Shown here one piece after another: positions 55,603 through 61,830 of a stretch of DNA of 64,000 nucleotides. Source of the stretch: Syntrophus gentianae (lineage in GTDB: Bacteria > Desulfobacterota > Syntrophia > Syntrophales > Syntrophaceae); NCBI RefSeq assembly GCF_900109885.1, contig NZ_FOBS01000007.1, positions 1 to 64,000 of the forward strand, written 5' to 3'. A model generated the notes under the pieces. The model was not told the DNA's origin, did no database searches, and saw nothing but the letters and a program-made list of their open reading frames with translations. The stretch's first letter is position 1; each line of letters starts with the position of its first letter. The position numbers were made by a program, and so were the translations under genes.

Positions 55603-55971
55603 TTTTATCTCTCCTTATAAAATATGAAAAGGACGATGGACGCAACCGGCGCTGATTGCATCCTTAATCTGAAAGCGGTAGATTGATGATTCGATACCGT
55701 ATCAAAAATTCAAATAAAAAAATAGAGATGCAAACAAGTACTTCCTGAAATCGGTTAAACGTGATGATTGTAAAGATAGCTTGATTTCAATCCGCAATTG
55801 ACAAATTTTCCACAAATTGCGAAGTTCGTTTTTTATCCTTATTACCATGATATCCAAAATCTTCTAGATGACTAGCGACCTGAAATTATGAAATATTTCA
55901 CTTTTTTGGCAAATTATCATGTGGTATGTTGACAACAAAAAATCGGAAAAAGCGAACTTCGTATATTAATT
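55603..55971. other. AT-rich region before the cassette array
   Basis: About 370 bases of markedly AT-rich DNA with no gene. GCGAAGTTCGTTTTTT (55819-55834) and AAAAAGCGAACTTCGT (55947-55962) are inverted arms 112 bases apart, 14 of 16 complementary. The right arm ends ten bases before the first recombination-type core GTTAGCT at 55972. It could be an attI-like site, the decayed attC of a lost cassette, or the promoter region of the array. No integrase reading frame is present. Confidence 0.5.
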
Positions 55972-55995
55972 GTTAGCTTGAAAGAAGGACGAAAT

Positions 55996-56334
55996 ATGAT
56001 TTTATGAACGGCAACGATAATAATTCTTGCTGCATTACTATCGGCATGCGCCTCTGGGACACAGGTTTTACGTCAAGTCGATCCCGGAATGTCATCTGCC
56101 CAAGTAGAACAAATCATGGGCAAGCGTGATGGGTGTTCTTCTGTTGAACATGATGGCCGCACATATACGCTGTATCAGTATATAAACAGGTATTGCAACT
56201 GGAACCAATCCATGTGGGATAAATGCGACTTTTTCATAATATTTAAAGATGATCACGTTATTGAAACAGGTGTTAAAGACGTCAGGTCGACGAATCCTAA
56301 TATGCAGTTTATGTACATATTCAGACAGCCATAG
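55996..56334 (+). pseudogene. Lipoprotein gene with a stop at codon 4
   Basis: A good ribosome-binding site (AAGGA) precedes ATG at 55996, but the frame reads Met-Ile-Leu-TGA and then continues as TATIIILAALLSAC, a lipoprotein signal peptide with lipobox LSAC. The mature part has DPGMSSAQVEQIMGK, like SmpA/BamE-type small lipoproteins, and ends at 56334. A single CGA-to-TGA change would explain it; a two-base loss after a second ATG at 56004 is the alternative. An unbroken inner ATG at 56089 would give an 81-residue cytosolic fragment without the signal. Confidence 0.7.
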
Positions 56335-56355
56335 ATAAACGGATCGACAGAAAAC

Positions 56356-57081
56356 ATGCCATGCAGATTATGCAATGAGAATAAGCCCCTCATGGAATCT
56401 CATATATTTCCAGAATGGCTTTACAGCCCGCTTTACGATGAAAATCATCGATTCTTTGTTCTTTCCACTGATGCAAACAAAAGAAGAGGCACCCGGCCAA
56501 AGGGAATCTATGAAAGGCTTTTATGCCATGAATGTGAACAGCGGCTTAGCAGGTGGGAAGGATACGCAAGGAATGTCTTTTTAGAATTGCCATTAAAAGT
56601 TATTGAGGATAATCGAGCGTTTGTATTTGCAGGTCTGAATTACGCTTCTTTTAAACTATTCCAAATGTCCTTGATTTGGCGAGCATCAATTTCAGACAGA
56701 CCTGAGGTACACAGGATCGACTTGGGTCCTCATTCAGAGAAAATTCGAAAAATGCTGTACGAGGAACTACCTGGAGAAGTTTATGAATACGGCTCAATTC
56801 TGATGCTGCCAGCGTTGAGCCAACAACTAATGCAGCAATTTGTGTATCCCCCTGAAAGGCTTCCCAGAAAGATAGACGGTCACACGGCCTATCGGGCAAT
56901 TTTGGGCGGTTTATTCTGGCTATTCATTGTTTCGAATCATTCGTCACGTGTTCCTCATGAAGTGTTTCTTTCAGAAAACGGGAATCTTCCTGTTTTCAAG
57001 GTTGGAGGGCCGGCCGTAATGTTCATGCAGCAATTAGCATCCGATTTCTTTGCGGCAGGCATGTTGAACAACCCGAAATAA
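56356..57081 (+). CDS. Cassette protein with HNH-like zinc motifs
   Basis: 241-residue protein. The N-terminus MPCRLCNENKPLMESHIFPEW holds a CxxC and a Ser-His pair, and LLCHECEQRLSRWEG a second CxxC, together the layout of a zinc-stabilised HNH/treble-clef nuclease-like domain. The rest (about 75-241) is mixed and unrecognised, with one hydrophobic stretch ILGGLFWLFIVSNHS. Whether it cuts DNA is unknown. It starts 21 bases after the lipoprotein frame and ends just before attC1. Intact and probably the functional cargo of the cassette. Confidence 0.7.
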   Translation: MPCRLCNENKPLMESHIFPEWLYSPLYDENHRFFVLSTDANKRRGTRPKGIYERLLCHECEQRLSRWEGYARNVFLELPLKVIEDNRAFVFAGLNYASFKLFQMSLIWRASISDRPEVHRIDLGPHSEKIRKMLYEELPGEVYEYGSILMLPALSQQLMQQFVYPPERLPRKIDGHTAYRAILGGLFWLFIVSNHSSRVPHEVFLSENGNLPVFKVGGPAVMFMQQLASDFFAAGMLNNPK

Positions 57082-57091
57082 TGAATAAAGC

Positions 57092-57178
57092 AGCTAACAA
57101 CAGCATGAACTCGGACTGGGAAAAACTGCGCAGCTTCGCTATGCAGCTTTTCCCATCCGGTTATGCTGAGCGTTATGG
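57092..57178 (+). repeat. attC recombination site 1
   Basis: An imperfect palindrome of about 87 bases. R'' is AGCTAAC (57092-57098), L'' is AGCATGAAC (57102-57110), L' is GGTTATGCT (57159-57167) and R' is GTTATGG (57172-57178). L'' and L' pair except for one unpaired G in L'', the extrahelical base typical of attC. Inside, CGGACTGGGAAAA pairs with TTTTCCCATCCGG. The G-TT crossover would be at 57172/57173. Confidence 0.82.
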
Positions 57179-57194
57179 TCAGAGGAATGGAACA

Positions 57195-57542
57195 ATGAAA
57201 ATCGCAAAGAATTCGATAGTTCCCTTCGACTTCGAGGGACTGCAAATAATTGACTACACGTCGAAAACCAACCGCTCGTCATCCATAGCGGAGATCATGG
57301 TTCTCCCCGGCGCCAGTCATCCGAAAGCCTATTCAAACAGGTCCGTCAAGTACTGATATGTTGTTTCGGGACGCGTCGAATTCGGTGTTGAAGACAACCT
57401 GTCCGAACTCATTGCTGGCAATGTCTGCGTCATCCCCAAAGGGCAACGGTTCTCATATCGGAATACGTCGAAAGAAACCGCGAAGCTCGTCTTGGTGCAT
57501 ACTCCTTCTTTCGATCTTGAATCCGAAGTACTTGAAAAATGA
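57195..57542 (+). pseudogene. Cupin-domain protein gene with one in-frame TGA
   Basis: The frame from ATG 57195 gives a cupin-like protein (about 115 codons) interrupted only by TGA at codon 54 (57354-57356). Before it: GASHPKAYSNRSVKY; after it: YVVSGRVEFGVED, IPKGQRFSYRNTSKETAKLVLVH and a normal TGA stop. The join KY-x-YVVSGRVEF is the typical cupin motif 1 to strand transition, where Tyr, Cys or Trp would fit. One substitution (for example TGG or TGC to TGA) explains it. No selenocysteine-type hairpin is evident after the TGA. Confidence 0.75.
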
Positions 57543-57577
57543 CGAAAAGCCTGTGAAGAAGAACGACGAAAAGAGCG

Positions 57578-57605
57578 CCATAACGAATAAGGTGATGAAC
57601 GTCAA
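57578..57605 (+). repeat. Left half of attC site 2
   Basis: R'' CCATAAC (57578-57584) is the exact complement of the GTTATGG that starts cassette 2. It is followed by an eight-base spacer-like stretch and L'' GTGATGAAC. No complementary L'/R' half is found before the istB remnant or in the 160 bases after it. Confidence 0.65.
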
Positions 57606-57681
57606 CTATTTTTTCCGATGAACGACAATTATAATTCCCGTTTTTGACTGTTGAATACAGCAGCTGAAACGAGGGAACTTA

Positions 57682-58152
57682 TCAGCTGCTAAATGCCAAA
57701 TTATGTTTTTGCGGCTCTGATTGAACCGATGGAATAGCAGCGGTTTCCTTTGTTTTTTGGGATTGCTCCAATCGGTAGCTGGATAAGTTCAACTCCAGGA
57801 TAACGCTGTGATGGACCAATCGGTCAATAGCTGCTGCCGTGGTCATGGGATCTTTAAAGATCTGCTCCCATTTTGAGAACGGCAAATTGCTGGTGATCAT
57901 TATGCTGCTACGCTCATAGCGGTCGGCAAGAAGAGTGAAGAGCACTTCCATCTCCTCTCGGCTTTGCTGCACGTAGCCGATGTCGTCAACGACCAAGGCC
58001 TCATATTTCGCATACTGCTTGAGAACGCGCGCCAGTTTCAGATCACGTTTGGCAATGAGCAGTTCCTGCACCAGCAGGCTGCAGGGAATAAAACGAACCT
58101 GTCGGCCCTGGTGAATCAATTCCTGAGCAATCGCGCACAAGAGGTGAGTGCG
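57682..58152 (-). pseudogene. istB remnant of an IS21-family insertion sequence
   Basis: About 156 codons of the IS21 helper ATPase IstB. Present: THLLCAIAQELIHQGRQVRF just after the Walker A loop, Walker B ALVVDDIGYVQQS, and TSNLPFSKWEQIFKD with the C-terminal DRLVHHSVILELNLSSYR. The Walker A motif and everything N-terminal are missing; similarity stops at about 58152. istA is absent. The remnant sits where the right half of attC2 should be, so it either inserted there or marks a deletion joint. Confidence 0.82.
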
Positions 58153-58212
58153 CTGTTAATCTTTCCGTATATCTTTGCAGAAGGGGAAACAGACAGAACT
58201 GTAGAATTACTT

Positions 58213-58219
58213 GTTAGCG
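58213..58219 (+). repeat. Candidate left core of cassette 3
   Basis: GTTAGCG, 82 bases before the HEPN-like gene, resembles the cores at 55972 (GTTAGCT) and 57172 (GTTATGG). Its complement matches the inner box AGCTAAC of the attC after the gene at six of seven bases. A GCCCC-TTT-GGGGC hairpin follows at once. Confidence 0.5.
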
Positions 58220-58300
58220 CCTCACGCCCCTTTGGGGCGGTTTATCAGAAAGTAGATTTGTCGAACTTACTCAGAAGCTGAATGACAGAGGGGTACAAAG

Positions 58301-59863
58301 ATGACATTACCGATTGACCTCAACCGCGAAGAAAACCACCTTGTCAACGCTACTGTGATTGTGGGAGACAATGAAATTAGGGGCGTTCCTTGTAAGATAT
58401 ATCTACCCGAACGAATTCATGAAAAGCCATCCATAGTTCTCAAGCCAGTAAAGGATGATGCCAATAGAATAATGGCTTCCTGGAAAGGTGCACTCAAAGC
58501 GACCATCTATGGCTTCGACAGAGAAATCCAGACCACTATCGAGGCTCCGCAGGTCTATTTTTCGGGGGCATCTACAAAATACTGGGGTGACGGTGTTTCT
58601 GGTACCACTGTACCTGGTGAACCACAAGATCTCCACATAATCCATCACCTGAAAAACGACGATTCCCGAAACGGGACTCATATTGTGTTCTGGATCAGCC
58701 CGAACAAATTTCTGACGCCCTTTGTTGTGCTCTCTAGTTCGTATGCTGGGGAAATCAAGTGCGAGCACGCGACGGAACTATCGTTCACCATAAAGGGCGG
58801 GCGCAAACTCGTCTTTGAAAAACACTTTCGCCAAAAAACCGAAAAGAACCATGACATAGTGCGGTGGTCATTCCTGGTCGCGTGCACGGAAATAGAAAGC
58901 CCCGCCAATGACGCCACCACCATCAAGAACGGCATAATGCAGGACATAGATGACTTCTTGTTAGTAGCGTCATTCGCTGCAAACCAGCGTACAGCGTGCC
59001 TAGGATGGACCGCGGTTGACAGAAATGCACATACGACATTTTACCGAGGAAACTACACGTTTCCTCAGCCAGACGATAGCAATAGCCTTGAAGACGGGAT
59101 CATAGATATCAAAGAATTTCAGGAATTCATGGAAACGTTTTACCCTTCATTCCTGTATTTCGAGAATAAGCTTGCACTCCGCAACTCTCTCAATGCTGCG
59201 GTGCCTTCCAAATCCCGCACGCTGGAGACTTCTTTCCTGAACATGTTCGCTGGACTGGAAACCCTCATCTTGGACTTCAAACGGAGAAAAGGCCTAGAAT
59301 TCGTTCTGCCTGAACCTTCTTGGACTGACCTCAAAAAATATCTCAAAACCTGTATAAAGAAATCCACCGAGCCGAAGGTTGAGAAGGCGCAACGAGCATC
59401 GATCTACACTAAGCTTGGAGAATTGAACCGCGTATCGCTCAGAGAAGCTTTTGACGAGTTTTGCAAAGCGTATTCAATTGGTCTTACAGACTTGTGGCCT
59501 GTCTTTGCCGACAACCAAGAGACAGGCCTTTGCGACATAAGTAACAAGCTCATTCATGGAGACCCATTTCCGCACGATTTGATTGCGGCTCTGTCCATAG
59601 CTCGTGAACACATGGAGTATGTCCTGCAACGGGCAATACTTGGTGTTTTGGGCTGGAACGTTAAGAAGACAAAGATAAATCCGGCCTACCTTCGGGTGAA
59701 CCTCTGCGCCATTAAGGAATTACCAGCAGCAAAAGAGACGCTTTCTGCGTACGTGAACAGCGAAGAACCATCAGAAGTAACAGCCCTTCGAGAGCCGGAT
59801 GCTATGTCAATGCCGAAGCTTTGCGAGGACGACACGGGACAACCCGATATTGACGGAAGCTAA
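58301..59863 (+). CDS. HEPN/ApeA-like protein (candidate defence factor)
   Basis: 520-residue protein without a signal peptide. The first ~270 residues form a beta-rich domain (VNATVIVGDNEIRGVPCKIYL, GTHIVFWISPN). From about 300 it is helical: RTLETSFLNMFAGLETLILDF, LNRVSLREAFDEF, then SNKLIHGDPFP at about 414-424 and REHMEYVLQRAILGVLGW. This layout matches ApeA-type proteins, whose C-terminal HEPN domain is an RNase with RX4-6H. Here Ser414 stands where the Arg of R-N-x-x-x-H would be; His419 is kept. Assignment is by pattern only. Its stop codon lies at the intron boundary. Confidence 0.6.
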   Translation: MTLPIDLNREENHLVNATVIVGDNEIRGVPCKIYLPERIHEKPSIVLKPVKDDANRIMASWKGALKATIYGFDREIQTTIEAPQVYFSGASTKYWGDGVSGTTVPGEPQDLHIIHHLKNDDSRNGTHIVFWISPNKFLTPFVVLSSSYAGEIKCEHATELSFTIKGGRKLVFEKHFRQKTEKNHDIVRWSFLVACTEIESPANDATTIKNGIMQDIDDFLLVASFAANQRTACLGWTAVDRNAHTTFYRGNYTFPQPDDSNSLEDGIIDIKEFQEFMETFYPSFLYFENKLALRNSLNAAVPSKSRTLETSFLNMFAGLETLILDFKRRKGLEFVLPEPSWTDLKKYLKTCIKKSTEPKVEKAQRASIYTKLGELNRVSLREAFDEFCKAYSIGLTDLWPVFADNQETGLCDISNKLIHGDPFPHDLIAALSIAREHMEYVLQRAILGVLGWNVKKTKINPAYLRVNLCAIKELPAAKETLSAYVNSEEPSEVTALREPDAMSMPKLCEDDTGQPDIDGS

Positions 59864-61767
59864 TCGGGTAGCCGGGGGTTTTTCTCCCCCAGCCCCCACA
59901 CCACCCGGCATGCGGGTCCGCACCGGGCGGTTCACAGAGATTACCGGTCCGTAGCCGGGTAGTGAATTTGAACCCACAGCTCTTTGACAGATAGAAGCCC
60001 TTGATCCTTGAGCCATTTGTTGGTCATTCCCGTTTGCGTTGCCAATGTCCGGGACAAATGCCATGGACCTTTGCGGCTGATCGCCACAGAGATAGCCACA
60101 TGGAGAGTTGTTCCCAGTTTGCAAAGCTCCCGTACCTTGGTTCTTGCCCAGCGCCACTGTTTGAAGTAGCACATTCGCAAGCGCCTTCTCAGCCAGGAGT
60201 CTATTTCCGGAATCGGCCTATAATATTCCGAAATCCCGAAGTAGTTCATCCAGCCGCGGAGATATTCGGCAAGCTTCTGATACCGATAGCCCATGGAGAC
60301 AAACCAGGACCGACCGGTCAGCTCTTTGACCCTTCGCTTGAATTCACGGAAGGCTTTCTCCGACCAGTGAATCTTGGTTCCACGGAAAGTGAAGCCAAGA
60401 AAGACAGCCTGATTTGTCGGGACGACTCGGCTTTTCTCCTCGTTGACCTTGAGTTTGAGGGTGCGTTCCAGGAAGCGTTTCAGGCTTCCCATGACCCGTT
60501 CGCCCGCCCGTCGGCTTTTCACCAGAACGATGAAGTCGTCGGCATAGCGAACAAAACGATGTCCACGCTTCTCAAGCTCTTTATCGAGATCATCCAGGAA
60601 AATGTTGGCAAGTAATGGTTACAAGGGACCACCCGGTGTGACTCCCAGGTGGGTTTCCTGCAAGCGGTCCTGGTTAATTACTCCGGCACGCAAGTATTTT
60701 CCGATCAGGCGCAGTAACCGTTTATCGCGTACTTTTCGCGCCACACGGTGCATCAGGACATCGTGGTTGACTGTGTCGAAAAACTTCGGCAGGTCCATAT
60801 CGACGGCGATGCGATAGCCTTCACGGATGTACGCGCGAACCTTGTACACCGCATGATGGGCGGACCGTCCAGGACGGAAACCGAAGCTTGAATCCGAAAA
60901 GGTCGGTTCAAAGATCGGAGTCAAAACCTGAGCGATGGCCTGTTGGATCAGCCGGTCGAGAACGGTCGGGATGCCCAGAGGACGAGTTCCCCCTGTTGGT
61001 TTTGGAATCTCTACCCGTCGTACCGGTGAGGGTTGATACTTACCTGTTAAAAGAGATTCGCGAATTCCGGTCCAGAAAGGTCTGGTATGGTCTGGAAACT
61101 GCTCGATGGCGATGCCATCGATACCGGGTGCGCCGCGATTGGCCTTTACCCTTTTCCAAGCCACTGCCATGTTCTCTTTGGAAAGAATCCACTCCAGCAA
61201 GCGCTCATTTGGGTCGTACGATTCCACGATGCGCCCCATGGGCACTTCTCCGTACGGATTCATCATGTCCTGAGAGCTCATAGAGGTTCTTCCCTTCTCT
61301 GTGTTCGGCCCTTCGGCGGGGTAAGTCTTTCCCGGCTTTTCTCCTTTCGCCGGGCTTGTTTCCTCTCGCCTAATATGGCCTCTGCTGACTCCTGTCCGGC
61401 CCTCCGCCATGTTGCCATGACGGGCGCCACTCCCGGAGGAGTTGCAAACCGGGCAGGTCTCCCCGGACTCTTTTCAGTACCCCCTTGAGGGGTATAAGAA
61501 CGTAAACTGTGACTATGCAACCGCAGCATTTACCGTATCTCCCGAATCCAGGGCTTTTTCATGTCGTGCTGACTTACCCGGAGACTCAGCCTTGTATGTT
61601 GTTTCTGTTCGTCGGCTCATAGCTTTGCACTCCGGCTTCCTTCGGACGGTCTCTCACAGTTCCGCCCTTGCCTTCGACTAGTACTTGTGTCAATGTATAA
61701 AGCATTGACAGGATTCACATACAGGGGGCTTTCACCCCATAAGTTCACGCCCGTGCCGGGCGTACAC
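59864..61767 (-). mobile_element. Class C group II intron inserted in attC (class C-attC type)
   Basis: About 1.9 kb, transcribed opposite to the cassette genes. The 5' end reads GTGTACGCCCGGCACGGGC (from 61767), a class C start. The 3' end has the domain V/VI pair: CGGTGCGGACCCGCATGCCG, a GGGGGAGAAAAACCCCC hairpin and a CTACCCGAT end (about 59864-59930). The boundaries are good to one or two bases. The ribozyme 5' domains occupy about 61290-61767 and the reverse transcriptase lies in domain IV. Insertion into the bottom strand of attC is the known habit of this subgroup. Confidence 0.82.
59941..61281 (-). pseudogene. Group II intron reverse transcriptase/maturase, one nonsense codon
   Basis: 446 codons from the ATG at 61281 (MSSQDMMNPYGEVP), with RT blocks GKYQPSPVRRVEIPKPTGGTRPLGIP, FGFRPGRSAHHAV, VDMDLPKFFDTVNHD, GVTPGGPL-stop-PLLANIFLDDLD and the catalytic YADD in FVRYADDFIVLVKS. 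The maturase domain with YLRGWMNYFGISE follows. The only break is TAA at codon 221 (60619-60621), where the family has Ser (GGPLSPLL), so a single TCA-to-TAA change inactivated it. There is no endonuclease domain, as usual for class C. Confidence 0.88.
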
Positions 61768-61830
61768 CACAGCATCAACTCGGACTGGCAATTCCGCTGC
61801 GCTCCATTGCCAGCCGGTTACGCGGAACAG
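61768..61830 (+). repeat. Right part of attC site 3
   Basis: CAGCATCAACTCGGACTGGC (from 61770) and GCCAGCCGGTTACGC (61809-61823) form the stem, again with one unpaired base (C) in L''. It is closely related to attC1: the segment AGCAT-n-AACTCGGACTGG is common to both. R'' lies on the other side of the intron at about 59857-59863. R' is not recognisable. Confidence 0.68.

Follow-up and report, generated by a model that had tools for sequence, protein, structure and literature searches.

How does a row of integron gene cassettes come to stand in a chromosome with no integron integrase gene (intI) beside it, and what lies at its head? The question is raised by positions 55,972 to 61,830 of a 64,000-nucleotide stretch of Syntrophus gentianae (assembly GCF_900109885.1, contig NZ_FOBS01000007.1, positions 1 to 64,000; hereafter the window), where a sequence-only reading had recognised a decayed cassette array without an adjacent integrase. 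That identification holds for this member of the Syntrophales and passed the tests set out beforehand to refute it: the first attC site is matched by a covariance model, the last one can be aligned after its two halves are rejoined, and a relative of a cassette 1 protein is itself cassette-borne in another genome of the order. Here, we find that the array also has a head. It opens with an attI site of a type called attI-A below, and it is very probably a dead attI-headed array without an integrase in cis, one of at least five attI-A-headed arrays in this genome, with others scattered likewise through related Syntrophales. The locus itself is a remnant of a known kind; what is unusual is the dispersed attI copies, for which we infer a mechanism.

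The left edge of the array was assigned by comparison with attI regions that adjoin integrase genes. The segment listed as attI-A in Table 1 is 84% identical to the stretch which, on contig C2 of the same genome, lies between an intI pseudogene and its first cassette, and in genome G063 the same type of site adjoins an intact intI of 458 amino acids, followed by five attC sites. Because of these two matches we conclude that the window array starts with attI, and the arrangement of attI followed by the first cassette was confirmed. It had been suggested that attI be sought elsewhere in the genome, and attI-A was found beside the C2 intI and on other contigs; the copy at the head of the window array itself had been missed. 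attI-A carries two 9-base-pair palindromes that co-vary between left and right across copies (CGAAGTTCG, CCAACTTGG and CCCATTGGG types, with a few exceptions), and the site ends with TATATTAATTGTT. The 9-mers change together between lineages, a pattern that would be expected if a single protein read both sites. The earlier description was also incomplete further along the array, where a second attI-like site (type B) had been overlooked before cassette 3. It is 79% identical to a stretch adjoining the intact intI of G001, a genome of the same genus, and in G009 a comparable match is found close to a partial intI. As to the integrase, the statement that none is visible stands in cis: there is no intI match upstream of the window attI and no integron integrase nearby. 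The genome does contain one on contig C2, broken by frameshifts and a TAA codon (TIGR02249), and it is the only integron integrase gene found in this genome.

Copies of the window attI occur on contigs C18, C2, C6 and C46 of this genome, with degenerate ones on C36 and C17 and a further core match on C55; homology among them reaches E 1e-72. On C18, C2 and C46, the head of the first cassette is an exact 7-8 nucleotide complement of the tail of its own attC. Across the order, a search with a 30-base core (up to 3 mismatches) recovered attI-A from 55 of the 155 Syntrophales genomes, a single genome having as many as 13 copies, and a reversed-pattern control gave none. The core is rare outside the order: with no more than 2 mismatches allowed, a sample of 395 genomes of the phylum added 3 genomes. 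No viral contig contained it. A perfect core on MWCE01000002.1, labelled Bacteroidetes ADurb.Bin234, is probably a binning error. The first genes behind 64 attI-A copies are almost all unrelated, forming only 3 homologous pairs. Head-tail complementarity of at least 7 nucleotides was present in the first cassette of 21 of the 35 testable loci. The corresponding figures were 1 of 35 for the R' box belonging to that attC and 5% for mismatched pairs. Such complementarity would be an indirect sign of attI x attC recombination by IntI. A literature search for genomes that have several attI sites, or orphan ones, returned nothing relevant.

Integron integrases are able to insert cassettes at sites other than attI, and dispersed arrays without intI are common. 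It might therefore be supposed that the cassettes entered simple genomic sites (attG type) off target and that the shared upstream sequence is a mere promoter repeat. We consider this very improbable: the shared sequence spans 160-200 base pairs, stops at the cassette GTT and equals the attI found beside intact intI genes, and the occurrence of attI-A next to the intact gene in G063 already contradicts such an account.

The cassettes themselves are bounded by attC sites. All 87 bases of attC1 were matched by the covariance model R2 (E 3.4e-5 in 10 kb, filters off), which was built from 18 attC sites of other genomes and contains no sequence of this one, so that the covariance check proposed for this site gave a match. 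One attC of the intact G001 integron shares 87% identity with attC1. A simple attC fold scan recovered attC1 together with weak chance matches, and Rfam gave no attC match in the window. The core boxes quoted earlier are all where they had been placed, and AGCTAAC reappears in attC3 once 59,863-61,765 is removed; the flanks rejoined in this way, at a junction first put at 59,857/61,768, can be aligned with both attC1 and the attC of G001. The window thus holds one intact and one intron-split attC, of which model R2 matches only the first. Cassette edges can also be seen outside the window: in G007, a 40%-identical relative of the 241-amino-acid cassette 1 protein lies directly before an attC (E 7e-10), within a cassette that has its own head GTTAGCAT and tail ATGCTAAC. 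Could GTT and AAC boxes combined with open reading frames of ordinary chromosome imitate all this by chance? Seven-base boxes are weak evidence when taken alone, and cassette 2 lacks covariance support; the covariance match, the attI homology, the intron within attC and the cassette-borne homologue nevertheless make such an origin extremely unlikely. For cassette 1 and attC1 it is already refuted.

How, then, did so many attI copies arise? One account is that a unit consisting of a left element, attI and a right element, devoid of an integrase, spread as a mobile docking station that was filled in trans by IntI from elsewhere, forming a distributed integron; we put this forward tentatively, at less than even confidence. 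Alternatively, each array may be a stump, left when its own complete integron lost intI by deletion, as in an ordinary CALIN (cluster of attC sites lacking integron integrases), with no integrase-less unit ever dispersed, and this too we regard as possible rather than probable. Integrase genes caught in the course of decay speak for such stumps: the locus that holds an intact intI in G063 has, in G054, an intI lacking a large internal part, and the C2 gene of this genome has decayed as well. Among 66 flanked attI-A loci, intI was found upstream in 3, of which one is intact, a second frameshifted and a third internally deleted. Against the stumps, a common left-hand sequence occupies the place where intI would be expected in the copies of the window, C18 and C6 and in two copies of G001. 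At 26 of the 66 loci, across families, attI is preceded by a related left element, which points to a shared integrase-less ancestor and against independent stumps; a single locus has both the element and an upstream intI. The window copy of the left element was aligned with those of C18 and C6, and in integrase-less copies, to which it is common, the element often begins with ACTTCTTCCTG. The right element often closes arrays, immediately behind the GTT of their final attC, and probably represents what was originally the downstream half of the docking site; no conserved RNA structure was predicted in it, and inspection by eye showed no evident target-site duplications flanking the left and right elements.

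Several points weigh against reading the window array as one of many dispersed attI-headed arrays. The attI was assigned from position and homology only, and the search used its conserved core, so that the conservation of the core was partly selected for. The flanked loci were drawn mainly from attI-rich genomes, and most of the relatives are fragmented metagenome assemblies. The four genomes richest in attI-A (G059, G060, G068 and G072, with 11-13 copies) gave no match to TIGR02249 at a threshold of E 1e-26, and with no integrase detectable there, capture in trans cannot be current in them; intI is present once or twice in several genomes that have 1-8 copies. The earlier argument that head-tail pairing exceeds chance is upheld by the attC1 match and by the 21 of 35 loci, and cassettes 2 and 3 are its weaker points. 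Cassette 2 is drawn from its boxes only, its tail being a bare 7-mer beyond which an attC is unrecognisable and unmatched by the covariance model, and the head and tail of cassette 3 are complementary over 6 nucleotides, not 7. In addition, GTT is missing from the right R' box of attC3. When an empty or syntenic site was sought by way of the left neighbour gene of the array, no homologue of that gene turned up in 40 relatives.

In the reading favoured here, cassettes were probably captured at the dispersed attI sites, in the usual reaction of attI with attC, by an IntI that was made elsewhere in the cell or has since been lost. After capture, the array would have decayed in several ways. The sole intI found in the genome would have broken, nonsense codons would have arisen in two cassette genes, an IS21 element would have come and left its istB fragment near the type B attI, and a group IIC-attC intron would have landed in the last attC.

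The window array resembles a CALIN as defined in IntegronFinder (PMC9024848) in having attC cassettes, no adjacent intI, few attC sites and signs of decay. The default of IntegronFinder 2 is at least two attC sites, and the window array has one intact and one intron-split site; unlike a CALIN, it starts with attI and is part of a dispersed set of attI sites in its genome. With the complete sedentary chromosomal integrons that are intact in G001 and G063 it shares the attI type, the attC type and the cassette layout, but it lacks an intI in cis and belongs to a genome with several attI copies instead of one. In mobile integrons, attI or pieces of it replace attC at the ends of some cassettes (PMC12901181). 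These attI-type and delta-attI cassettes likewise place attI away from its own integrase and beside cassettes, whereas in the present case arrays at many points of the chromosome have the complete attI region at their head.

attI is usually treated as a single site beside intI, and software finds arrays without intI by attC alone. The presence of many intI-less attI copies per genome bears directly on the origin of integrase-less cassette clusters and suggests that the integron content of Syntrophales is easily undercounted. It also makes testable the idea that many docking sites are run with one integrase in one cell. If the distributed integron is real, one cell would keep many separately promoted small arrays.

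Table 1. Features of the array at the right end of the window (positions of the 64,000-nucleotide stretch).
Feature	Position	Strand	Basis or remark
Left element	55737..55830	+	nhmmer E 5e-20 (model includes the window copy); overlaps left part of attI
attI type A, left edge of array	55799..55974	+	homology to C2 stretch
Left 9-bp palindrome of attI-A	55820..55828	+	CGAAGTTCG; co-varies with right box
Right 9-bp palindrome of attI-A	55953..55961	+	CGAACTTCG, then TATATTAATTGTT
Cassette 1	55972..57171	+	head GTTAGCT (55972-55978), tail AGCTAAC (57092-57098), exact 7-nucleotide complement
Small lipoprotein-like gene, cassette 1	55996..56334	+	translation; TGA at codon 4
241-amino-acid CxxC..H..CxxC protein gene, cassette 1	56356..57081	+	HNH-like by eye
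attC1	57092..57178	+	covariance model match; 87% identical to attC in intact G001 integron
Cassette 2	57172..57584	+	head GTTATGG (57172-57178), tail CCATAAC (57578-57584)
Cupin-domain gene, cassette 2	57195..57542	+	Cupin_2 E 7e-8; TGA interrupts frame (translation)
IS21-family istB helper gene fragment	57682..58140	-	PF01695 profile positions 110-237 of 238, E 2e-38
Second attI-like site, type B	58159..58216	+	directly before cassette 3
Cassette 3 up to intron junction	58213..59862	+	head GTTAGCG (58213-58219)
520-amino-acid protein gene, cassette 3	58301..59863	+	no known family
Group IIC-attC intron	59863..61765	-	inserted in attC3 bottom strand; Rfam RF02001 and RF01998
Intron reverse transcriptase/maturase gene	59941..61410	-	TAA in GGPL*PLLANIFL
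attC3 right part	61766..61830	+	R' GTT missing

The lipoprotein-like product of cassette 1 has a weak OsmE-like match (E 0.0024), its 241-amino-acid neighbour matches no Pfam or PADLOC family above the cut-off, and the cassette 3 protein has no homologue among 154 genomes of the order; no defence family was found for the window cassette proteins tested. The istB fragment lies just ahead of the type B attI. Elsewhere, the first gene behind the C6 attI (L051, 9595-10452) looks like a TIR-domain protein, judged from its sequence, and two attI-A copies are immediately followed by hsdM-like type I methyltransferase genes (G001 contig C90, L158, 3259-5804; L179, 8047-9594), which are too large for a usual cassette. 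The internally deleted intI of G054 lies in a minus-strand array (contig C55, L160, 8783-9328), where an in-frame deletion joins profile positions 4-73 to 361-431, and its neighbour gene is the one that also adjoins the intact G063 intI. Left elements frequently abut right elements head to tail (L071, L144, L145, L156 and others), and a similar TTTCAAnnnGTAATC motif is present in both, possibly as a repeat unit.

The intron in attC3 runs opposite to the cassette genes and has group II ribozyme domains (Rfam, 61,342-61,663, minus strand) and a maturase reverse transcriptase. Its 5' end falls on exactly the same base in several other copies, in this genome and the genus, and its 3' end on the same position in one other copy. 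In the G001 and contig C13 copies, the intron is preceded by a 5' exon that resembles the bottom strand of an attC (stem-loop) and ends in TTGT, while the window junction, TGGT/T, has one mismatch to TTGT/T. Judged by target site, domains and protein similarity, the intron is of the group IIC-attC type, and it agrees with the behaviour described for such introns (PMC7923331). Like those in the class 1 integrons of pIMP4_000369 and pVIM_Pse-KSS14, which adjoin cassettes and are oriented against their direction, it occupies the attC bottom strand at TTGT/T or nearly so. It differs from them in its reverse transcriptase, which is about 54% identical to theirs and broken by a stop codon. Further fragments of the intron lie at C13:45132-45441 and C2:241165-241345, and the C13 fragment follows an attC-like stem-loop, which hints at more cassette remnants.
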